In this document: piece by piece, positions 2,764 through 31,690 of the stretch
How the letters are laid out: each line of letters opens with the position of its first letter
Numbering within the stretch: the stretch's first letter is position 1
DNA from: Pseudomonadota bacterium
Lineage (GTDB): Bacteria > Oederibacteriota > Muellerivitia > Muellerivitales > Muellerivitaceae
DNA: 39,423 nt
Direction of reading: 5' to 3'
Assembly (NCBI GenBank): GCA_021324075.1
Contig: JAJPJW010000086.1
Span: 1-39,423 of the forward strand
Made by a program: the position numbers and the translations under genes
The notes under the pieces: generated by a model
Seen by the model: only the letters and a program-made list of their open reading frames with translations
The model's database searches: none
What the model was told of the DNA's origin: nothing

Positions 2764-5700
2764 GACACCGGGGATTCTTCGGGGGAGTTTTCCCTGAACT
2801 TGGTGGAAATGATCTTGGAGACGCCCGATTCCTGCATGGTGACGCCGTACATGACGTCGGCCGTCTCCATGCTGACCTTGCTGTGGGTGATCATGATGAA
2901 CTGCGTCTTCTTGCTGAATTCCCGGAGCAGGTGGGTGAAGCGTCCCACGTTGACGTCGTCCAGGGGGGCATCGATCTCATCCAGCAGGCAGAAGGGACTG
3001 GGCTTGACCATGAACAGCGCGAAGAGTAGGGCGATGGCCGTCAGGGCCTTTTCGCCGCCCGAAAGCAGGGAGACCGACTGCAGGCGCTTGCCGGGGGGCC
3101 GGGCCACGATCTCGATGCCCGATTCCAGCACGTCGCCCTCGTCGATGAGGATCAGTTCGGCCCTTCCGCCCTCGAAAAGCCGCTGGAAGGTATCCTTGAA
3201 GTTTTCCTGGACCGTGGCGAAGGTCGAGGTGAAAAGCTCCTTGGAGGTCAGGTTGATCTTGTTGATGGCCTTCTGGAGGTCGTCCTTGGCCTTCAAGAGG
3301 TCGTCCCTTTGTTCGGTCAGGAACTTATACCGTTGGTTGAGCTCGTCGTATTCCTCGACGGCCACCATATTGACCAGCCCCAGGCGCTCGATTTTGGCGC
3401 GCAGCTCGATGGATTCCTTTTCCGCCGACTCCTCGTCAAAGTCCTTTTCAAGGGCCACCGGGGGGTTGTCCAGGTCCACCTTGTACTCCACTTGGAGCTT
3501 TTCCTCGATGTTGCGGGCCTCGACGTTCACCTGGGCTTCCTGCACCTCGAAACCGTGGAGGTCCTTTTGGATCTCCTCGGACTTGCCCCGGGCCTGCCTT
3601 ACCTTTTCCGCCCGCTCTTCGGTTTCCATGGCGGCCTTCTCGCGTTTTTCGACGATGATCTTGACCCGGGCGTCGGCCGCTTGCTTGGACTCGGAAAGGC
3701 CCCCCACCTTTTTTTCCAGGTCGTCCAGGTCCAGCGACATCTGTTGTTCCTGCAGGTCGATCTGCTGGTTCTCCTCCCTTTTTTGGGCCACCGACTGGGT
3801 CAATTGATCCTGTTCGGTCTGGTAGCGTTCCGCTTCTTCCTTGGACCTTGCGGCCACTTCATCCAAGGCGGAGAGTTCAAGTTCCACCTGGAGGATTTGT
3901 TTTGAGATTTCCTCTTTTTGGGACTGCAGTTCCTGCAGGTGGCGGCGGGCCTCCGAAATCTCCTCTTGGGTCAGATGATGGGCCTGCTCGCTTTCAGCCA
4001 AAAGCCGGCTCAATTCCTGGATGCGATTCTTATCGGTGTTCCAATGCTCTTCCAGTGCGGCCTTTTCTTTTTCTTCAGCGACCTTCTCGGTTGAAAGCCG
4101 GGAAAGGGTTTCCTGGGACTGGGTGATTTCCTTTTCCATTTCCGCCAGGCGGATTTTAATCTGTTGGCGGCGGGTTTCGGCAGCCAAAAGCCGGTCTTCG
4201 ATCTCTTTCCGATTCTTCTTCGTTTCGCTCAAAAGTCCTTCGGATTGCTGGATTTGCACTTCCAGCGACTTGATTTTCTCGGAGAGCTCTGTCATTTCGC
4301 GGTGGCGGCCCAAGAGGGAAACCCCGGTCACGGCCGATCCGGCCTTGATAAAGCCCATCGGGCCCATCCGGTCGCCTTCCTGGGTGACAAAGCGGACCTT
4401 GGGATAGCTTCCGGTCAAGGCCTCGGCGACGGAAAGATCCCGGACGAAGACGTCCTGGTCGAATAGGAAGCGGACAACCGGTTCCATCTGGGGATCGTAC
4501 TTTAGAAAGGAAACGACCGAAGCTTCGACGCCGGTTTCCGAAAGTACCTTCTCCGGCAGCCGGTCGGAGGGCGCCTGGCGGAGGTCCTCCAAAACGAAAA
4601 GGGAGACTTTTCCTTGCCCCTCGGATTTCAAATAATCGATCACTTTGTGGGCCGTAGCCCGGTTCTGAACCACCAGGGATTGCAGTTGCCCCCCTAAAAG
4701 GGCTTCCACTGCGTTCTCATGGGCCTGGTCCACCGAGATCAAGTTGGCCACCACACCGAGGACTTCCTGCCACATCAGGGGTTCGGTTTGCTTGGCCTGG
4801 AGGATGACCTTCACCCCCGCGTCATAGCCGGTGAGCTTGTTTTGCAGCTCTTCCAAAACGCCATAGCGCGACCGCACTTCCGAGTAATTGTTGTTGAGTT
4901 GTTTGAGGCTGGCGTTGATCTCGTCGATTTGGGTTTCCTGGTGGGCCAGGGTTCCTTGGAACTGCAGGATATTCTCATCCAGTTGGGTTTCCTCGGATTG
5001 GACCGCGCCTTTTTCCGCGTTGATTTTCGAGAGCCGTTGTTCGGTCTCGTTGAACTCCCGTTGCAGCCGATCGACCTGGGCGGTCAAGTCAGCCACCCGG
5101 CGCGACGTCTCCTCGTCCTGGGATTTGAGCGATTCCAGTTCCGCCTTCATCTGGGCGGCCTTTTTGACCAGGTCCATGGCGGCCGCATTCTTGGTTTCCA
5201 GGTCCTGGTTCTTGGCTGAGAGGTCGCCGTCAAGGGCGGAAAGTTTTTCTCCCAGGCCCGCCTTGAGTCCGTCTTTTTCCTTCTTCTGGGACTCCTTGTT
5301 CTGGAGAAGCTGGAGCCGTTCCGCCACCCAGACCTTCAACTGTTCGATCCGGCTTAAGGCTTCGGCCGCCTGTTGTTCGTTGCGTTGTTTCTGGTCGGCC
5401 AGCATGTTGCGGTGCCGCCTGGTGCCTTCCACCCGGCCCTGGGTGACTTCCACTTCGCTGGCGGCCTTATAGGCTTGTTCCCTGACGCCCGCCAGTTCCT
5501 GCTCGATCTCGTTGAGTTGGGCCCGATGGCCCTTCTCGTCCTGTTCCAGTTTGTGGGTTTCGGATTGGGCCCCTTCCAGGCGCTCCCTCACCTGGGTCAT
5601 CTTATGGTGCAGGTCCTTGAGCTTGTTTTTAAGCTTGGCCGACTTGTCCAAGTGGATCTGGACCTGCAGCTTGGCGAGTTCTTCCTTGTACTCCCGGTAC

Positions 5701-9054: not shown

Positions 9055-11199
9055 ATGCCCTTCCGCACCCGACTCAAAAGTACCCTCCAAGCGGCTCTTC
9101 TTTTCACTTTATTCCTCATTCCACCCGTCTTTGCCCAACAACCCGCCAGTAATGGCTTTTTCACCACCAGCGACGGCGTCAAGCTCCACTACTTGGAGGC
9201 AGGCCAGGGTGAAACGCTGCTTTTTATTCCCGGCTGGCTGATGCCGGCGGACATCTGGCAAAAGCAGATAACGGACCTTTCCCAGGACTACCATGTCGTG
9301 GCCCTGGATCCCCGTTCCCAGGGCCAATCGGACATGACGGCCCAGGGTAATGACCCTTTCCGCCGCTCCAAGGACGTCAGCGAACTCTTGGACCATCTCC
9401 AGGTGGATTCGGTGGTGCTGGTCGGCTGGTCCTTGGGCGCCTTCGACGCCCTGGCCTACCTGCACGAATTCGGTGCGGATCGGGTGAACGGCTTGGTGCT
9501 GGTAGACAGCCCCCTGGCGGCCCCCTCGGGCCCTGCGCCCGCCCAACGCAGCCCCTTCCTGCAACGGTTCCAAAACGACCGCGAACACGTGGGCGACGAC
9601 TATGTCTGGAGCCTGTTCAAGAAACCCCTGCCCTCCCCCCTCCGCAAGACCTTGGAAAAAGCCCAAGCCCGCGTCCCAACCGATATCGCCTTGGCCACCT
9701 TGGACAACACCCGCCCCGGGGATGCCTGGGAACCCAAACTTTCAGTCTTGAAGAAAGTCTCCATTCTTTATGTCATCACCCCGACCTATACCTCCCAAGC
9801 GGATTACCTTAAGGAGATTGACCCGGATGCCCGGGTCGAAACCTTTGAAAACTGCGGCCACGCCTTGTTTGTGGATGAATTCCAGAAATTCAACGATGTG
9901 TTGAGGGACTTCCTCAAGCAGGCTTCCCTTTACTCCTCAACTACCTCTTCCCCAAAACCCGGGAAACCGGCGGCCGCACCATCCACCGCTTCCCGGCCCA
10001 CAACCGTCCAGCCGACTCTCCAACCCGTTGCGGGCCCGACAAAACAGCCCGTTTTAGAATCCACTCCCATCCCAACAAAGCCCGCCACTCCACGCCCGAC
10101 CCGCACGCCCCGAAAAACGGCAACCCCTACTCCCTCTTTCACCCCTGGACCTTCTCCCGCGCCCGCGAAAGCCCGTCCCACCCCTCGTCCGACTCGCACA
10201 CCCAAAAATACTCCGACGGCCACAACGGCTCCTACACCCCACCACCGCAAGGTCACACCCAGCCCGGCCGCCACACCCCTTCCTCAACAACCGACCCAAC
10301 GCCCGGCTGCAAAACCGTCCAAATCCCCAGCTTGGGCGTCCAGCGGCAACCCGATCCAGGATGGCTACTTCACCACCAGCGACCACATGAGACTGCATTA
10401 CCTGGAAGCCGGCACCGGCCTGACCTTGGTCTTCATCCCCGGATGGCTCATTTCCGCCGAAGTTTGGATGCCCCAACTACAGGACCTCTCGGCCGACTAC
10501 CATGTGGTGGCCCTGGATCCCCGCTCTCAAGGACTTTCCGACATGACCCCCCAGGGGGATGAGCCCATGCGCCAGGCCAGGGACATCCAGGAATTGTTGG
10601 ACCACCTGCAACTTTCCACCGCGGTTTTGATCGGCTGGTCCCATGGGGCCTTCCATGTTTTGTCCTACGTAAACGAGTTTGGAACCAACCGGCTCTATGC
10701 CTTCGTGCTCGTGGATTCTTCGTTGGGCGCCGCCCAGGCCCCCCCGGACAGCAGCACCCGGCAGGCAAAATTCATCGAGGAATATAAGAAGGATCCCCAA
10801 ACGGCCCTCAGGGGTTTCATTTGGGGACTTTTCAAGAATCCGCCCCCGGCAAACTTTACCAAGGACTTGAATCAGTCCGCCCTGCGCACCCCTCCGGAGA
10901 TCGCCCTGGGGCTCATGAACAATATCTACCCAGGCGATAAATGGCAGCCTCCCATCCAAACCGTCCGCCAAGTGCCCCTTCTTTACGCCGTTACCGATAA
11001 ATTCGCCTTCCAGGCCCAATACCTCACCCAGGTGGACCCCCTGGCCCGGGTGGAAATTTTCCAAAATACGGGCCATGCCTTGTTTGTCGATGACTCCTTG
11101 CACTTTAATACCGTCCTCAGGGATTTCTTAAGGTCGGCCAGCCGTTACCCGTCGGGCTGGCCCACCCGTCCAAAACCGACGGCGACGCCGCACCCATAA
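9055..11199 (+). CDS. exported protein with two tandem alpha/beta hydrolase domains
   Basis: A 714-residue protein. The start at ATG 9055 is chosen over the upstream in-frame ATG at 8989 because GGGAG lies seven bases before it and the signal peptide (about 1-28, ending VFAQQ) follows directly. It holds two homologous alpha/beta hydrolase domains (about 32-292 and 434-695) joined by a Pro/Thr/Arg-rich linker (about 295-430). Both have the IPGWL oxyanion-type loop, DYHVVALDPRSQG, a nucleophile elbow (GWSLG, Ser126; GWSHG, Ser529) and a terminal GHALFVD histidine (His269; His674). The catalytic acid is not obvious in domain 1 (ITPTYTSQADYL); domain 2 has an Asp nearby (VTDKFAFQAQYL). It is the first gene of a three-gene unit. 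Substrate unknown; esterase, lactonase or peptidase-type chemistry are all possible. Confidence 0.88.
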   Translation: MPFRTRLKSTLQAALLFTLFLIPPVFAQQPASNGFFTTSDGVKLHYLEAGQGETLLFIPGWLMPADIWQKQITDLSQDYHVVALDPRSQGQSDMTAQGNDPFRRSKDVSELLDHLQVDSVVLVGWSLGAFDALAYLHEFGADRVNGLVLVDSPLAAPSGPAPAQRSPFLQRFQNDREHVGDDYVWSLFKKPLPSPLRKTLEKAQARVPTDIALATLDNTRPGDAWEPKLSVLKKVSILYVITPTYTSQADYLKEIDPDARVETFENCGHALFVDEFQKFNDVLRDFLKQASLYSSTTSSPKPGKPAAAPSTASRPTTVQPTLQPVAGPTKQPVLESTPIPTKPATPRPTRTPRKTATPTPSFTPGPSPAPAKARPTPRPTRTPKNTPTATTAPTPHHRKVTPSPAATPLPQQPTQRPAAKPSKSPAWASSGNPIQDGYFTTSDHMRLHYLEAGTGLTLVFIPGWLISAEVWMPQLQDLSADYHVVALDPRSQGLSDMTPQGDEPMRQARDIQELLDHLQLSTAVLIGWSHGAFHVLSYVNEFGTNRLYAFVLVDSSLGAAQAPPDSSTRQAKFIEEYKKDPQTALRGFIWGLFKNPPPANFTKDLNQSALRTPPEIALGLMNNIYPGDKWQPPIQTVRQVPLLYAVTDKFAFQAQYLTQVDPLARVEIFQNTGHALFVDDSLHFNTVLRDFLRSASRYPSGWPTRPKPTATPHP

Positions 11200-20918: not shown

Positions 20919-20941
20919 GTTGATCCCGAACAGGGATCAAC
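20919..20941. other. hairpin at convergent gene ends
   Basis: GTTGATCCC and GGGATCAAC form a perfect 9-bp stem around GAACA. It sits between the MFS stop and the convergent cupredoxin gene and overlaps the latter's stop codon. No T-tract follows on either strand, so it may protect 3' ends or act as an inefficient terminator. Confidence 0.6.
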
Positions 20942-23048
20942 GAAGAAGAAGTAGTTTCCCGACCGACTGGCGGGACCCGTCGGTCAGCACCACATAGTAG
21001 AGGCCGCTGGCCAGCGGCGTTCCTTTGTTGTCCTTCAGGTCGAACGAGAACTGGTAAACACCCATCGGCAGGTTCCCCAGGGGCTTTTCCAAAACCTTCC
21101 TAAAGGCCGTCGTGAATAGCTGGAGCCGCACATCATTGGCCGGGCCGCTCAAACTGAAGGCCACCTGCTCCGGCTGGTTCCCATTGGAGGGATTGGGGAA
21201 AACCACCGGACCACCGGAAACCGGGACGGTCGTGGAAGTGGACGTCGGCGTTGAAGTCAAAACAGCCGCGGACGTGGCCGTCGGCGTGGATGTGAAGGTA
21301 TCGGAAGGCACGAGGGTCGCGGTGGAAGTCGGTGTGGAGGTCGCCGTACTGGTGCCTGTTGCGGTCGGCGTATTGACCGGGGTATTGGTTCCAGTGGCCG
21401 TCGGGGTCAGGGTTGCCGTGCTGGTCGGGGTGGAAGTTGCGGATGTGGTGGCCGTATCCGCCAGTGTCGCCGTCGGGGAGGAAGTTGCCGTTTCCGTTTT
21501 CGTCGAAGTCGTGGTCGAGGAGGGCGTGGCCGTTCCCGTCAAGGTGGTGGTTGAACTGGGTGTCGAGGTTGCCGTAAGGGTCGCGGTGTCGGCCAGGGTG
21601 GGAGTCGAAGTGGAAGAAGGCGTCTGGGTCGCCGACGCCGTGGTGGTCCGGCTTGCGGTAAAGGACGGCGTCGCCGTCGTGGAACTGGTAGGCGTGGAAG
21701 TGGCGGAATAAGTGGCGGTCAAACTGGCCGTAGACGTCGGGGTCAGGGAAGGGGTCGGGGAGGCCGTCAAACTCGCGGTCAAAGTGGCGGTGGAAGTCTC
21801 GGTATTGACGGGGGTCAATGTGCCCGTGGAAGTCGCAGTAAAGGAGGCCGTTGCCGTGGCCGTCCGGCTTGGGGTGGGGGACGGCGTCGCCGTCATCGAA
21901 CTGGTGACCGTGGCCGTCACTGTGGAAGTCGTCGTGGACGTGGTGGTCAAGCTGGCGGTTGAAGTGGGGGTGGAAGTTTGCGTGGAAGAAGCCGTTGAAG
22001 AGGGCGTTGGGGTCGTGGTGGCGGTGGCGGTCCGGGTCGCCGTCGAGGTGGCGGAAGAGGTTGGCGTGCCCGTTTGGCTTGAGGTGGCCGAAGCCGTCGG
22101 GGTGGAAGTCTCGGTGGATGAGGGCGTGGACGTACGGCTGTTGGTTGGACTACCCGTCATGGTGGCGGAAGGAGTGGACGAAACGGTCGAGGTGGGGGTG
22201 CCGGTGGGGCTGGAAGTGGCCGTACCCGTGGGTGTGCCGGTAGGAGAGGCCGAGGCGGTGTCGCTGGGCGTTCCCGTAGAAGTGCGGGTCACCGTGGCGC
22301 TGGCCGTGAAGCTGGGGGTGCCCGTGGCCGAGGAGGTGGGGGTATTGCTCGCGGTCTCGGTGGAGGTTCGGGTGAGGGTGGAAGTGGGGGTTGAAGTCGG
22401 GGTGGCGGTTGCGGTCAAGGTCAGGGTTCCCGTCGCGGTTTTAGTGGCGGTAAAGCTGGCGGTCAGGGTGGGGGTACCCGTAGGGGTCTGGGAAGGCGTT
22501 GAGGTCAGGGTGTGGGTGGAAGTCCCCGTGGCGCTGAAAGTGGCCGTATTGCTGACAGTGGCGGTTGGGGTGGAAGTGGCCGTATTCGCAGGGGTGAACG
22601 TTGGCGTTCGGGTCGCCGTGTTAGTCGGTGTATTGGCGGCAGCCGCGTTGACAATAACTGTGCAGGCCATGCCGCCGCAGCCGGTGGCTGTGCAGGAAGT
22701 CGTCGTGCATCCCGTGGCATGGTTCCCGCAATGGAACCAAAAGGTGCCGGCCGTATTAAAAGTGAAGGAAAAGCCGCTAGGGGCCGTATTAGGGCAGGGG
22801 GATATCAACGAACCCGTGGCACTGTTGAGGTAAAGGGGATGGATGGTGGTGTTGGTCGTATCCCAGGTGAGCGAGTCCCCCTGGTTGATGGTGACCGCAG
22901 TGATGGCGGTCGTGGAACCTGTGGTCGTATAGCGGAATTGGGTCCCCGTAGGGTTGATGACGCCGATCGAAACGGTGGCCGCTGGGGCCGATGCCGCCGC
23001 GAATCCCAGCCACAAACCGAACCAAAAATTTTTCCGTGTCAGCGGCAT
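20937..23048 (-). CDS. exported cupredoxin with giant Thr/Ser/Pro-rich region and FlgD-like C-terminal domain
   Basis: A 703-residue protein; the start at ATG 23048 is set by GGAG about seven bases upstream. It has a signal peptide (about 1-24, ending APAA) and a plastocyanin-like cupredoxin domain (25-134): INQGDSLTWDTTNTTIHP, FNTAGTFWFHCGNH and GMACTVIVN. The likely copper ligands are His70, Cys107, His110 and Met127. A Cys/Thr/Gly-rich insert separates His110 from Met127 (normally about four residues). Residues about 138-608 are almost pure Thr/Ser/Pro/Ala repeats. Residues 609-703 (VVFPNPSNGNQPEQVAF... GLYYVVLTDG... VGKLLLLR) resemble FlgD-like or sorting-type C-terminal domains. Probably a secreted or surface copper or electron-transfer protein on a long stalk; this is inference. 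Confidence 0.85.
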   Translation of the reverse strand: MPLTRKNFWFGLWLGFAAASAPAATVSIGVINPTGTQFRYTTTGSTTAITAVTINQGDSLTWDTTNTTIHPLYLNSATGSLISPCPNTAPSGFSFTFNTAGTFWFHCGNHATGCTTTSCTATGCGGMACTVIVNAAAANTPTNTATRTPTFTPANTATSTPTATVSNTATFSATGTSTHTLTSTPSQTPTGTPTLTASFTATKTATGTLTLTATATPTSTPTSTLTRTSTETASNTPTSSATGTPSFTASATVTRTSTGTPSDTASASPTGTPTGTATSSPTGTPTSTVSSTPSATMTGSPTNSRTSTPSSTETSTPTASATSSQTGTPTSSATSTATRTATATTTPTPSSTASSTQTSTPTSTASLTTTSTTTSTVTATVTSSMTATPSPTPSRTATATASFTATSTGTLTPVNTETSTATLTASLTASPTPSLTPTSTASLTATYSATSTPTSSTTATPSFTASRTTTASATQTPSSTSTPTLADTATLTATSTPSSTTTLTGTATPSSTTTSTKTETATSSPTATLADTATTSATSTPTSTATLTPTATGTNTPVNTPTATGTSTATSTPTSTATLVPSDTFTSTPTATSAAVLTSTPTSTSTTVPVSGGPVVFPNPSNGNQPEQVAFSLSGPANDVRLQLFTTAFRKVLEKPLGNLPMGVYQFSFDLKDNKGTPLASGLYYVVLTDGSRQSVGKLLLLR
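21236..22631. repeat. low-complexity Thr/Ser/Pro-codon repeat tract
   Basis: About 1.4 kb inside the cupredoxin gene encoding degenerate units such as TSTPTSTATLTPTATGT. Units are 4-8 codons and vary, so this is a diverged repeat, not an exact tandem array. It gives rise to long antisense frames on the plus strand made of Val/Glu/Gly repeats, which are not genes. Repeat number may vary between strains. Confidence 0.9.
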
Positions 23049-23231
23049 GCACAAACTCCAATTGTTTAAAAAAAGCGTACCACTGGTTTTCAACCTGGGT
23101 GGCAAATGCGGAAAGAAAATTCAAAAAATCGTTTTATCGTTGCGCCAAAAATTTTTGGGACTTTCAAAAGGATGAATACAAAGGAAGAGGTCAAAAAGTT
23201 TCTGGATTAAGCAGATTTGAGGGTAATGGCT

Positions 23232-27298: not shown

Positions 27299-28174
27299 TT
27301 AGGGGATCACTTTATTAAGGGGGTACTCGACGATGCCTTCGGCGCCCGCGTCCTTGAGCTTGGGGATCATGGTTCGGACGATCTTCTCATCCACCACCGT
27401 GTCCACGTCCACCCAGTTCTTGTCCTGCAGGTCCGCCACTGTGGGCGAATTGAGCGAGGGCAACACCTTCAAGACTGCGTCCAGCTTGGTGCGGGGCACG
27501 TTCATTTTCAAGCCAACCTTTTCCTCCGCGGCGAGGGCGCCCTTAAGGAGCAGCACCATATCTTCGATCTTCTTTTTCTTCCAGGGGTCGCCCCAAGCGG
27601 CCTTATTGGCGATGACCAGGGTATTGGATTCCATGAGGGTTTCCAGGATCACCAGGTTGTTGGCCCGCAGCGATGAGCCTGTCTCGGTGACCTCGATGAT
27701 GGCGTCGGCCAGTTCGGGCGGTTTGGCCTCGGTGGCTCCCCAGGAGAATTCCACCTGGGCGTTGACGCCGTTCTTCTTTAAATATTCCTTGGAAACGTTC
27801 ACCAATTCGGTGGCGATCTTCTTGCCTTCCAAATCCTTGACCGACTTGATGGCGGAGTTGGCCGGGGCGGCCAAGACCCAGCGCACGGGCCGCAAACCGG
27901 CCTTGGCGTAGATCAACTCGGCCACTTCCTGCACCTTGGAGCCGTTTTCCATCACCCAGTCCCGGCCCGTCATGCCCACGTCGAGGGTGCCGTCTTCCAC
28001 ATAGCGGCTCATTTCCTGCGCGCGGATCAACATGGCCTTCATTTCGGGATCGTCGATGGCTGGAAAATAGGAGCGGGAGGTCGAGGAGATCTTGTACCCC
28101 GCCTTGCCGAAGAGATGAAAGGTGGATTCCTGGAGGCTGCCTTTGGGTAATCCCAGTTTCAGTAAATTGGACAT
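27299..28174 (-). CDS. hisG: ATP phosphoribosyltransferase HisG, long form
   Basis: HisG catalyses the first step of histidine synthesis, joining ATP and PRPP to give phosphoribosyl-ATP, and is feedback-inhibited by histidine. The 291-residue length and the C-terminal regulatory domain (about 210-291, ending [15 protein letters not shown]) identify the HisG_L form, which needs no HisZ. Visible motifs are [16 protein letters not shown] at the N-terminus, [14 protein letters not shown], and the PRPP-binding region [26 protein letters not shown] lies eight bases upstream of ATG 28174. It is isolated from other his genes here and has a long, structured leader (28251-28336), which may control it. 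Confidence 0.97.
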
Positions 28175-28250
28175 TTCCGTTTATCCTTATAGAAAACTTG
28201 GCCCGGTTGGGCCGGCTTGGGCTGTATTACGCAATCCATCCAAATAAAAA

Positions 28251-28336
28251 GGGGCCTCCGGCCCCAAAATTGAGAACTGTGTGGTCCTCATTTCCTTAAA
28301 TCGGGCTAAGCCCGACCTGATTAAGGAAAATGAGGA
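28251..28336 (-). ncRNA. double-hairpin element, copy A (hisG leader or small RNA)
   Basis: Read on the minus strand: a long hairpin whose outer arms are TCCTCATTTTCC and GGAAATGAGGA and whose tip is TCGGGCTTAGCCCGA, then a linker containing CAGTTCTCAAT, then GGGGCC-GGA-GGCCCC followed by TTTTTATTT. The second hairpin therefore looks like an intrinsic terminator located 77 bases before hisG. Copy B (31257-31344) shares the same order, loop types and linker. Possibilities: an attenuator or riboregulator for hisG, a separate small RNA ending at the T-tract, or a mobile palindromic repeat. Confidence 0.6.
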
Positions 28337-28354
28337 TAACGCCCGACCTTGGCT

Positions 28355-28383
28355 TTGACAAGGTCTGATTATATCTTTAAAGG
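28355..28383 (+). promoter_or_regulatory. possible sigma-70-type promoter of rlmN
   Basis: A perfect TTGACA (28355-28360) is followed after 17 bases by TAAAGG (28378-28383), a weak -10. Transcription would start near 28390, about 45 bases before the rlmN start. It overlaps the opposite-strand TATAAT assigned to hisG. Confidence 0.4.
28368..28373 (-). promoter_or_regulatory. TATAAT -10 box facing hisG
   Basis: The minus strand reads TATAAT here, about 32 bases upstream of hairpin 1 of element A. No convincing -35 is seen. It would start a transcript beginning with the double-hairpin element and running to hisG. Confidence 0.4.
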
Positions 28384-28436: not shown

Positions 28437-29513
28437 TTGGAAAACGCCGTCCAATTTTACGATTACACCCGCCCCGAACTCGTGCGCCTTTTAGGCGAAT
28501 GGGGCTCCCCCCGCCACGTGGGCACCCAGGTCTTCCATTGGCTCTACCGGAAGCACGCCAGGAGCTTCGGCGAAATGACCGACCTTTCCAGGGAACTGCG
28601 GGGTGAACTGGAAACCAAAGCCGCCCTTTCCCCCTTGAAGCTGCATACCCGGCAGGCCTCCCAAGACGGTACGGTGAAATACCTTTGGCAGTTGCCCTCC
28701 GACGCCAAGGGCCAGTCCGCCCTGGTGGAAAGCGTGCTCATCCCCATGGCCCGGGATGAGGAAGGGGAGCCCTCCCGTTATACCGCCTGCCTTTCCACGC
28801 AGGCCGGCTGCCGCATGAAATGCGCTTTTTGCGCCACCGGGGTCCCCAAGTTCCAGCGCAACCTGACGACCGCCGAAATCGTGGCCCAGATCATCGGCAT
28901 GGAGCAGGACTCGGGCACTCCCTTTAATAACGTCGTCGTCATGGGCATGGGAGAACCCATGGATAATTATGAGAATACGCAGAAAGCCATGCGCATCCTG
29001 CACGACCCCGAGGGGCTCAACCTGGGCCGCCGCCGCATCACCATCTCCACTTCCGGCCTCCTGGAACATATCGACCGCTTTATCAAGGACGATTGGCCCG
29101 TTTCCCTGGCCGTTTCCCTGCACAGCGCCGATCCCGAAATCCGCAGCCGGATCATGCCCATCAACCGCTCCAATCCCCTGGACAAGCTGCGCAAACTCAT
29201 GCGCAAATATACCTTCGTGCGGCGCCTGCCCGTGACGCTGGAATACATCCTTTTAAAGGACGTGAATGACCGCCCGGAGGACGCCGACAAACTGGCGGCC
29301 TATTGCAAGGACCTGCTATGCAAGGTCAACTTGATCCGCTATAACCCGGTACCGACGCTTCCCTTTGACTCCCCGACCGAAGAAAAGGTGCTGGCCTTCC
29401 GGGAACAATTGAAGGCCAAGGGAATGCGGGTTTTCCTGAGGGAACGCAAAGGCGTGGATATCGCCGCGGCCTGCGGCCAATTGGGGTTTGAAAACACCCC
29501 CGCCGTAAAATAA
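28437..29513 (+). CDS. rlmN: dual-specificity 23S rRNA/tRNA m2A methyltransferase RlmN
   Basis: RlmN is a radical-SAM enzyme that methylates A2503 of 23S rRNA and A37 of some tRNAs. The 358-residue protein keeps the 4Fe-4S motif CRMKCAFC (Cys125, Cys129, Cys132), the catalytic Cys118 in TACLSTQAGC and the C-terminal cysteine in DIAAACGQLG (Cys346). It also has NVVVMGMGEPMDNYENTQKA and the SAM-binding TISTSGLLEHIDRF with SLAVSLHSADPEIRSRIMPI. The start codon is TTG at 28437 with CGGAGA eight bases upstream. A PASTA-domain gene follows after 12 bases, so they probably form one operon. Confidence 0.97.
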   Translation: MENAVQFYDYTRPELVRLLGEWGSPRHVGTQVFHWLYRKHARSFGEMTDLSRELRGELETKAALSPLKLHTRQASQDGTVKYLWQLPSDAKGQSALVESVLIPMARDEEGEPSRYTACLSTQAGCRMKCAFCATGVPKFQRNLTTAEIVAQIIGMEQDSGTPFNNVVVMGMGEPMDNYENTQKAMRILHDPEGLNLGRRRITISTSGLLEHIDRFIKDDWPVSLAVSLHSADPEIRSRIMPINRSNPLDKLRKLMRKYTFVRRLPVTLEYILLKDVNDRPEDADKLAAYCKDLLCKVNLIRYNPVPTLPFDSPTEEKVLAFREQLKAKGMRVFLRERKGVDIAAACGQLGFENTPAVK

Positions 29514-31231: not shown

Positions 31232-31237
31232 TATAAT
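31232..31237 (+). promoter_or_regulatory. TATAAT -10 box before element B
   Basis: A perfect TATAAT with no good -35 (TTCCCG at about 16 bases is poor). Transcription would start near 31244, just before the double-hairpin element and about 140 bases before the Bor-like lipoprotein gene. Confidence 0.45.
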
Positions 31238-31256
31238 GCCCCCAGTTTCGAGCGGT

Positions 31257-31344
31257 ACCCTCATTATCATTTTAAGGAATCGGGCTTCGCCCGATGAAGG
31301 TTATGAGGGTGATGCAGTTTTCCCAATGGAGGGCCGAAGGCCCC
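31257..31344 (+). ncRNA. double-hairpin element, copy B (leader of lipoprotein gene)
   Basis: Hairpin 1 has outer arms ACCCTCAT (31257-31264) and ATGAGGGT (31303-31310) and a tip ATCGGGC-TTC-GCCCGAT region (31279-31295). A linker with CAGTTTTCCCAAT leads to hairpin 2, GGGCC-GAA-GGCCC (31331-31343). The same parts in the same order occur in copy A facing hisG. No T-tract follows hairpin 2 here, and the lipoprotein start codon lies 41 bases downstream. Confidence 0.6.
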
Positions 31345-31384
31345 GAATGAGTGGATAAACTGTATAGAAATCCAAGGAGGTTTT

Positions 31385-31690
31385 ATGAAAAAGGCTCTTT
31401 GTCTGCTGCTTTGTTGCGGCTTCCTTTCCATTTCCCTTTCGGGTTGCTACACCCTGAATCACACCGTCGGCAATGGCGGTAACGGGCAAACGGTGGCGAG
31501 CAACCGCGAGTGGTACATCCTTTGGGGCTTGATTCCCTTGAACAACGTGGATGGGGAAAAGATGGCCTTGGAAAATAACCTGACGAACAACTACACCATC
31601 ACGTCCCAAATGAGCTTCGTGGACGTGCTGTTGAGCATCGTGACGGGGATTGTCACAATCCACGCCCAGACGGTCAGCGTCTCAAAGTAA
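31385..31690 (+). CDS. Bor-like small lipoprotein
   Basis: A 101-residue lipoprotein with start ATG 31385, set by AAGGAGG four to five bases upstream. The signal peptide ends in a lipobox LSGC (Cys21). The mature part includes TVASNREWYILWGLIPLNNV and NYTITSQMSFVDVLLSIVTG followed by IVTIHAQTVSV. This resembles the Bor/outer-membrane lipoprotein group (short, WxxxGL and a final T-V motif), whose members are surface lipoproteins of unclear role. It is preceded by a TATAAT and the double-hairpin element B, and followed by a strong terminator, so it is probably monocistronic and regulated through its leader. Confidence 0.78.
   Translation: MKKALCLLLCCGFLSISLSGCYTLNHTVGNGGNGQTVASNREWYILWGLIPLNNVDGEKMALENNLTNNYTITSQMSFVDVLLSIVTGIVTIHAQTVSVSK

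Follow-up and report, generated by a model that had tools for sequence, protein, structure and literature searches.

A two-hairpin intergenic repeat next to hisG and bor, very probably a MITE-like mobile element, in one family of the uncultured phylum FCPU426

The window, meaning the whole stretch of 39,423 nucleotides that was analyzed, contains two copies of a two-hairpin repeat. Copy A lies in the 5' region of hisG, with the divergently oriented rlmN on its other side, and copy B lies upstream of a small lipoprotein gene (bor). The repeats, their parts, and the neighboring genes are as follows.

27299-28174, minus strand: hisG, ATP phosphoribosyltransferase, downstream of copy A (PF01634 and PF08029)
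28225-28338, minus strand: copy A, two-hairpin repeat in the hisG 5' region (covariance model R1, 99.9 bits)
28228-28282, minus strand: copy A hairpin 2, ACACAGTTCTC...GGGGCCggaGGCCCC...GGATTGCGTA, outer 3' arm partly decayed (fold; match to the H2 model)
28282-28338, minus strand: copy A hairpin 1, ATCCTCATTTTCC...TCGGGCttaGCCCGA...GGAAATGAGGA (fold; pairs counted on alignment A3; match to the H1 model)
28368-28373, minus strand: TATAAT upstream of copy A, host promoter-like and outside the element (kept in congener G001 and in congener G002, which lacks the element)
28437-29513, plus strand: rlmN, divergent neighbor on the other side of copy A (PF04055 and PF21016)
31232-31237, plus strand: TATAAT upstream of copy B, host bor promoter-like and outside the element (bor orthologues have TATAAT without the element)
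31256-31369, plus strand: copy B, two-hairpin repeat (covariance model R1, 103.3 bits)
31256-31257, plus strand: TA, left junction of copy B (TA flanks inserted copies on both sides and is single in empty alleles)
31256-31312, plus strand: copy B hairpin 1, ACCCTCATT...ATCGGGCttcGCCCGAT...ATGAGGGT (fold; match to the H1 model)
31312-31366, plus strand: copy B hairpin 2, ATGCAGTTTTC...GGGCCgaaGGCCC...GATAAACTGTATA (fold; match to the H2 model)
31365-31366, plus strand: TA, right junction of copy B (on the same evidence as the left junction)
31385-31690, plus strand: small Lambda_Bor lipoprotein gene, downstream of copy B (PF06291)

An earlier note on this DNA had described two similar double-hairpin copies; both are present, with wider boundaries (those listed above). 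The repeat unit is ~110 bp long (about 112 bp), larger than first described, and consists of two consecutive long hairpins. In canonical orientation, it reads TACCCTCATT-(variable)-ATCGGGCtncGCCCGAT-(variable)-AATGAGGGTgATRCAGTTyTC-(variable)-GGGCCgaaGGCCC-(variable)-gATAAACTGYATA; hairpin 1 is formed by TACCCTCATT...AATGAGGGT, and hairpin 2 is formed by ATRCAGTTyTC...GGGCC/GGCCC...AAACTGYATA. The view that loops and linker are kept as well as stems, beyond a chance palindrome, was borne out for the stems, which are conserved and show compensatory changes, but the CAGTT-TC “linker” is in fact the 5' arm of the long hairpin 2, closing on AAACTG ~40 nt downstream. The AAACTG-side arm is intact in copy B (GATAAACTGTATA) and partly decayed in copy A (GATGGATTGCGTA). 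Each window copy folds as two independent hairpins, with fold z-scores of -5.4 and -5.75 for the two copies. Elsewhere in the window (21286-22450), a long run of imperfect GTGGCCGTC-type direct repeats lies inside two large ORFs that overlap on opposite strands (minus, 20937-23105; plus, 21112-22833).

We built a covariance model of the element from 15 copies and used it for genome-wide copy counts; analyses of copy context used 77 copies from three genomes. The search of the whole genome and of related genomes that the earlier note had proposed identified about 33 distinct sites (E ≤ 1e-4) in the 3.57-Mb genome to which the window belongs (the window genome), together with strong covariation in the stems. 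At E ≤ 0.01, there were 46 matches in G001 and 34 in G002; of five further members of the family, G006 had none and the other four had 1 to 11 each. At the same threshold, none of 31 genomes outside the family had a match. Copy A as a 126-base query returned five more nucleotide matches in the window genome at E ≤ 1e-6, and copy B was absent among its nucleotide matches in that genome at E ≤ 0.001. Based on the nucleotide matches, the ~33 model sites, and the fold z-scores, the copies are far beyond chance. When 85,000 species genomes were scanned for an exact pattern, matches were limited to metagenome-assembled genomes of candidate division FCPU426; the element had no counterpart in plasmid, phage, or viral collections. 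Within the collections searched, the element is confined to one family of this uncultured phylum.

In stretches compared between three congeners, 16 tests of an orthologous site gave no copy and 14 gave one; species within a single genus differ in where the element is inserted. The site of copy A is filled in G001 and empty in G002. Clean junctions were read in two comparisons (locus L147 with L127, and L099 with L118), each with TA present once in the empty allele; in the second, the empty allele reads GGGTTAGGAGCG and the filled allele reads GGGC-TA[CCCTC...CTGCA]TA-TGAGCG. The filled allele at L099 has TA on both sides, and at L147 the left side reads TG. Several empty alleles are not base-perfect because the intergenic DNA has diverged. 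In several copies of a second repeat, E2, the element sits at one fixed TA (CGGTCCCT|TA|GNTCGG; CCCT|TA|GNTCG), whereas other E2 copies are uninterrupted, and model matches overlap by 2-3 bp at this TA; the filled E2 copies may all go back to a single event. Within a tandem array of the element on contig C94, neighboring units share one TA.

The unit is bounded by TA or TG and inserts at a TA/TG dinucleotide that then flanks both sides. The two ends agree: TA..TA in 38 copies, TG..TG in 19, TG..TA in 4, and TA..TG in none (p = 4e-12, with copies treated as independent). The agreement extends into hairpin 1, where the stem partner of the terminal A/G (alignment column 64) is U in 37 copies with TA at left and right and C in 18 copies with TG at left and right. 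The copy tree is poorly resolved; four or more switches of the TA/TG label fall on its well-supported branches. The coupling can be read in two ways: the stem partner adapts after duplication of the target dinucleotide, or target choice is directed by the stem base. An enzyme acting in trans would recognize the two hairpin ends, as a folded single strand or as a cruciform, and the same enzyme would make a 2-bp staggered insertion at TA/TG.

Several other repeats occur in these genomes. E2 is about 140 bp long (CCTAACCCGG...GGTCCCTTAGNTCGG...CGANTAAGGGACTA), with a terminal hairpin (for example, L136:2171-2316 and 5553-5698; L121:367-502), and has about 44 matches in G001, 12 in G002, and 4 in the window genome; its copies matched nothing in Rfam above threshold. 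A third repeat-like sequence, E3 (CCTAACAGGGTG...CACCCTGTCTACAGCCACGGGTTAGGAGCGAATCG...CGATTCGCGAC; L099 about 9800-10060, L118 about 2270-2420), is split by the element in the window genome and intact in G001. Among repeats of the form GTCATTGCGAGGAG...GACGAAGCAACC (L033 about 2850-3100; L153 about 1900-2200), one holds the two-hairpin element and one sits between hisG and rlmN in G002. TG-type copies often lie within (TTTTGAG)n heptamer arrays, many of which are without the element; in the DNA fetched, there were 26 such arrays in 335 kb of G001, 19 in 185 kb of G002, and 1 in 373 kb of the window genome.

Genes are avoided and both orientations are used. Based on gene predictions from a simple codon-usage script, for which individual boundaries are approximate, any overlap with a predicted gene is ≤30 nt in 71 of the 77 copies, as opposed to 10% of random 112-mers. 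Relative to the downstream gene, 34 copies have the same orientation and 42 the opposite (n = 76, p = 0.42). Copies in the window genome have 47% GC, compared with 58% for the DNA fetched from that genome and 49% for its intergenic DNA. The element is thus short, non-coding, multi-copy, mostly intergenic, and more A+T-rich than the genome, with insertion polymorphism and target-site duplication, as is typical of MITE-type elements; it departs from that type in having no true terminal inverted repeats between its ends. A mobile palindromic repeat was among the options that the earlier note had offered, and it is the one to which the empty orthologous sites, the insertion into another repeat, the TA junctions, the random orientation, and the intergenic location all point. 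We consider it very likely that the window sequences are diverged copies of one non-autonomous, MITE-like, small intergenic palindromic mobile element. Against this reading stand the lack of a linked transposase and of such end repeats, the slower change of stems than of loops at shared sites, and the imperfect match of several empty alleles.

The other two options were a cis-regulator and a small-RNA family; the earlier note had also reported a TATAAT box upstream of each copy and a same-strand gene downstream. Boxes and genes are both there, with 29 nt between box and element for copy A and 18 nt for copy B; however, the boxes belong to the host genes. At hisG, TATAAT and its surroundings are conserved in the window genome, G001, and G002, the last without the element. 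The bor orthologues of G003 and G005 have no element either, yet TATAAT lies a short distance before their start codons. Since the boxes persist without the element, we rejected TATAAT as part of it; with one mismatch allowed, TATAAT is near 12/77 copies, as opposed to 25% for control intergenic DNA, and so is not enriched. A lineage-specific leader, that is, a structured 5' UTR controlling the downstream gene (hisG, bor, or others), would account for the position of both window copies between a box and a same-strand gene, for the covarying stems, and for the hisG copy common to two congeners, but sites are not conserved between congeners, the empty sites contradict it, and the orientation is random. 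We regard such a leader as extremely improbable, and for hisG we rejected it given the empty sites, the random orientation, and the host-owned boxes. An Rfam scan of the window gave no match at the gathering threshold, T-box, His leader, and riboswitch families included, in agreement with the earlier note, which had recognized no T-box or other known leader; scans of the individual loci gave sub-threshold chance matches only.

The suggestion that hairpin 2 of copy A and the T-run after it could end a transcript before hisG did not hold as a family feature: a comparable run follows hairpin 2 in 7 of 73 copies, so that a conserved terminator was rejected, and a T-run follows the whole element in 12 of 77. 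The same counts bear on a small RNA gene family spread in the genome, which would fit the very stable folds and the covariation in the stems. The copies, however, share no promoter or terminator of their own, the TA junctions and nested insertions indicate a unit inserted at the DNA level, and no Rfam family reached threshold in the window; we judge this reading very improbable. The preferred explanation is that copies A and B inserted into 5' regions, shortly downstream of promoters that were already there. The hisG and bor mRNAs therefore probably contain them as a stable double hairpin. If the copies affect these mRNAs, the effect would be incidental or exapted later and would not explain why the element exists.

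For the structure test, we used an alignment of 73 copies that was not fitted to the structure. Standard pairs occupied 94.7% of pair cells, and double changes occurred in 23 of 28 pairs (157 cells). None of 500 shuffles matched the observed pairing, and sliding the partners lowered pairing to about 40%. Pairing was thus kept at 95% while mean identity between copies was 63%. Covariation alone is no proof of RNA function, since both covariation and pairing can arise and persist in palindromes through template switching (PMC8794818). Among the 20 window-genome copies in alignment A3, the nearest within-genome relative was ≤74% identical; with no aligned pair above this value, activity in the window genome is old, and to judge from these sequences the element is probably a relic there.

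At six sites shared between species, changes affected 34 of 336 stem positions and 94 of 324 loop positions. In the three well-aligned pairs, the numbers were 9/168 for stems and 31/171 for loops (Fisher p = 0.0003), and four double compensatory changes were found at two shared sites. The slower change of stems than of loops after insertion hints at constraint, although the sample is small and template-switch correction of palindromes could contribute to the difference (PMC8794818). A mobile origin after which many copies were kept by selection as mRNA-structure elements, for example in protecting or processing mRNA ends, is compatible with the best explanation and draws on this slower stem change, on the compensatory changes, and on the pairing retained among diverged copies. 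Template switching during replication can, however, keep a palindrome paired (PMC8794818), and independent insertion is possible at two of the six shared sites compared; we therefore hold such exaptation to be possible yet doubtful.

We compared the element with known repeat families. The Caulobacter CcrM-associated intergenic repeats (CIR; PMC2229807) are similarly about 110 bp long and intergenic, with TA termini and two long hairpins joined by a short linker. CIR contain a conserved GANTC methylation motif (PMC2229807), whereas GANTC occurs in 8 of 77 copies of the present element and is rarer there than in control intergenic 112-mers (95/335); CIR are also known from alphaproteobacteria, whereas the present element was seen in one FCPU426 family only. 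ERIC (enterobacterial repetitive intergenic consensus; also IRU/RU-1) resembles the element in being non-coding and intergenic, with tens of copies, TA termini, target duplication, and no known transposase. In ERIC, the 5' and 3' ends pair with each other (PMC2229807), whereas each half of the present element pairs with itself; the lineage is also different, and the element is set apart from ERIC by this description. RUP and other IS630-type MITEs are comparable in being about 107 bp long and intergenic, with TA as target, and in having inserted into other mobile sequences. The terminal inverted repeats of RUP match a resident IS630 element (PMC2229807), whereas the ends of the present element (TACCCTCATT and, in reverse complement, TATRCAGTTT) agree little beyond TA, and no IS630-type DDE_3 (PF13358) was above cut-off in five genomes of the family. 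REP, REPIN, and BIME repeats with RAYT (Y1_Tnp) share intergenic hairpins, a paired-hairpin unit, and tandem arrays; REPs are 20-40 bp palindromes with an end tag (PMC3733652) and are associated with a Y1 transposase. The present element differs in that the window genome has no Y1_Tnp and elsewhere none is linked to element copies. It is a new repeat family, closest to CIR in architecture and to ERIC and RUP in behavior, but for each of the three it lacks a defining feature that was examined. A limited literature check found no paper that names it, and this small mobile repeat of FCPU426 appears to be undescribed.

No transposase could be tied to the element in the Y1_Tnp and DDE_3 searches; ERIC and CIR likewise have no known mover. 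A profile search (PF01797) found no Y1_Tnp in the window genome or in G003, though both have copies of the element. Y1_Tnp (HUH) proteins of about 320 aa are encoded in G001 (several), G005 (one), and G007 (one), at L165, L166, L170, L172, L173, and L174. Searches of two genomes with models of hairpin 1 only and hairpin 2 only revealed no larger element sharing these ends; the two halves nearly always occurred together. Hairpin 1 stood alone in a few copies in G001, of which two or more lie inside E2 repeats.

A unit of REP/REPIN type or derived from IS200/IS605, which a Y1 HUH transposase would move in single-stranded form, with the terminal dinucleotide read via base pairing in hairpin 1, would agree with the subterminal hairpins at both ends in place of terminal inverted repeats, with the joint switching of terminal A/G, stem partner, and far end, with the repeated label changes on the tree, and with the Y1_Tnp genes in three genomes. 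The poor resolution of that tree counts against it, as do the copies in two genomes without Y1_Tnp and the loci around Y1_Tnp genes, which hold no copy; moreover, IS200/IS605 elements insert without target duplication. We consider this reading unlikely. It is improbable, in our estimate, that hairpin 1 reads its own integration dinucleotide, with the partner of the terminal A/G as guide, and is moved by an enzyme not yet recognized. If such a guide base existed, replacing U with C would make TG instead of TA the target at both ends, and TG-type copies would have colonized the TTTTGAG arrays of two congeners.

As a MITE-like repeat, the element accounts for a recurrent structured motif that might otherwise be mistaken for a riboregulator, and it serves as a warning that strong covariation and a promoter box are insufficient for calling a leader. 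The coupling of terminal dinucleotide, stem partner, and far end provides a testable handle on target choice by bacterial repeats of the transposase-less type.
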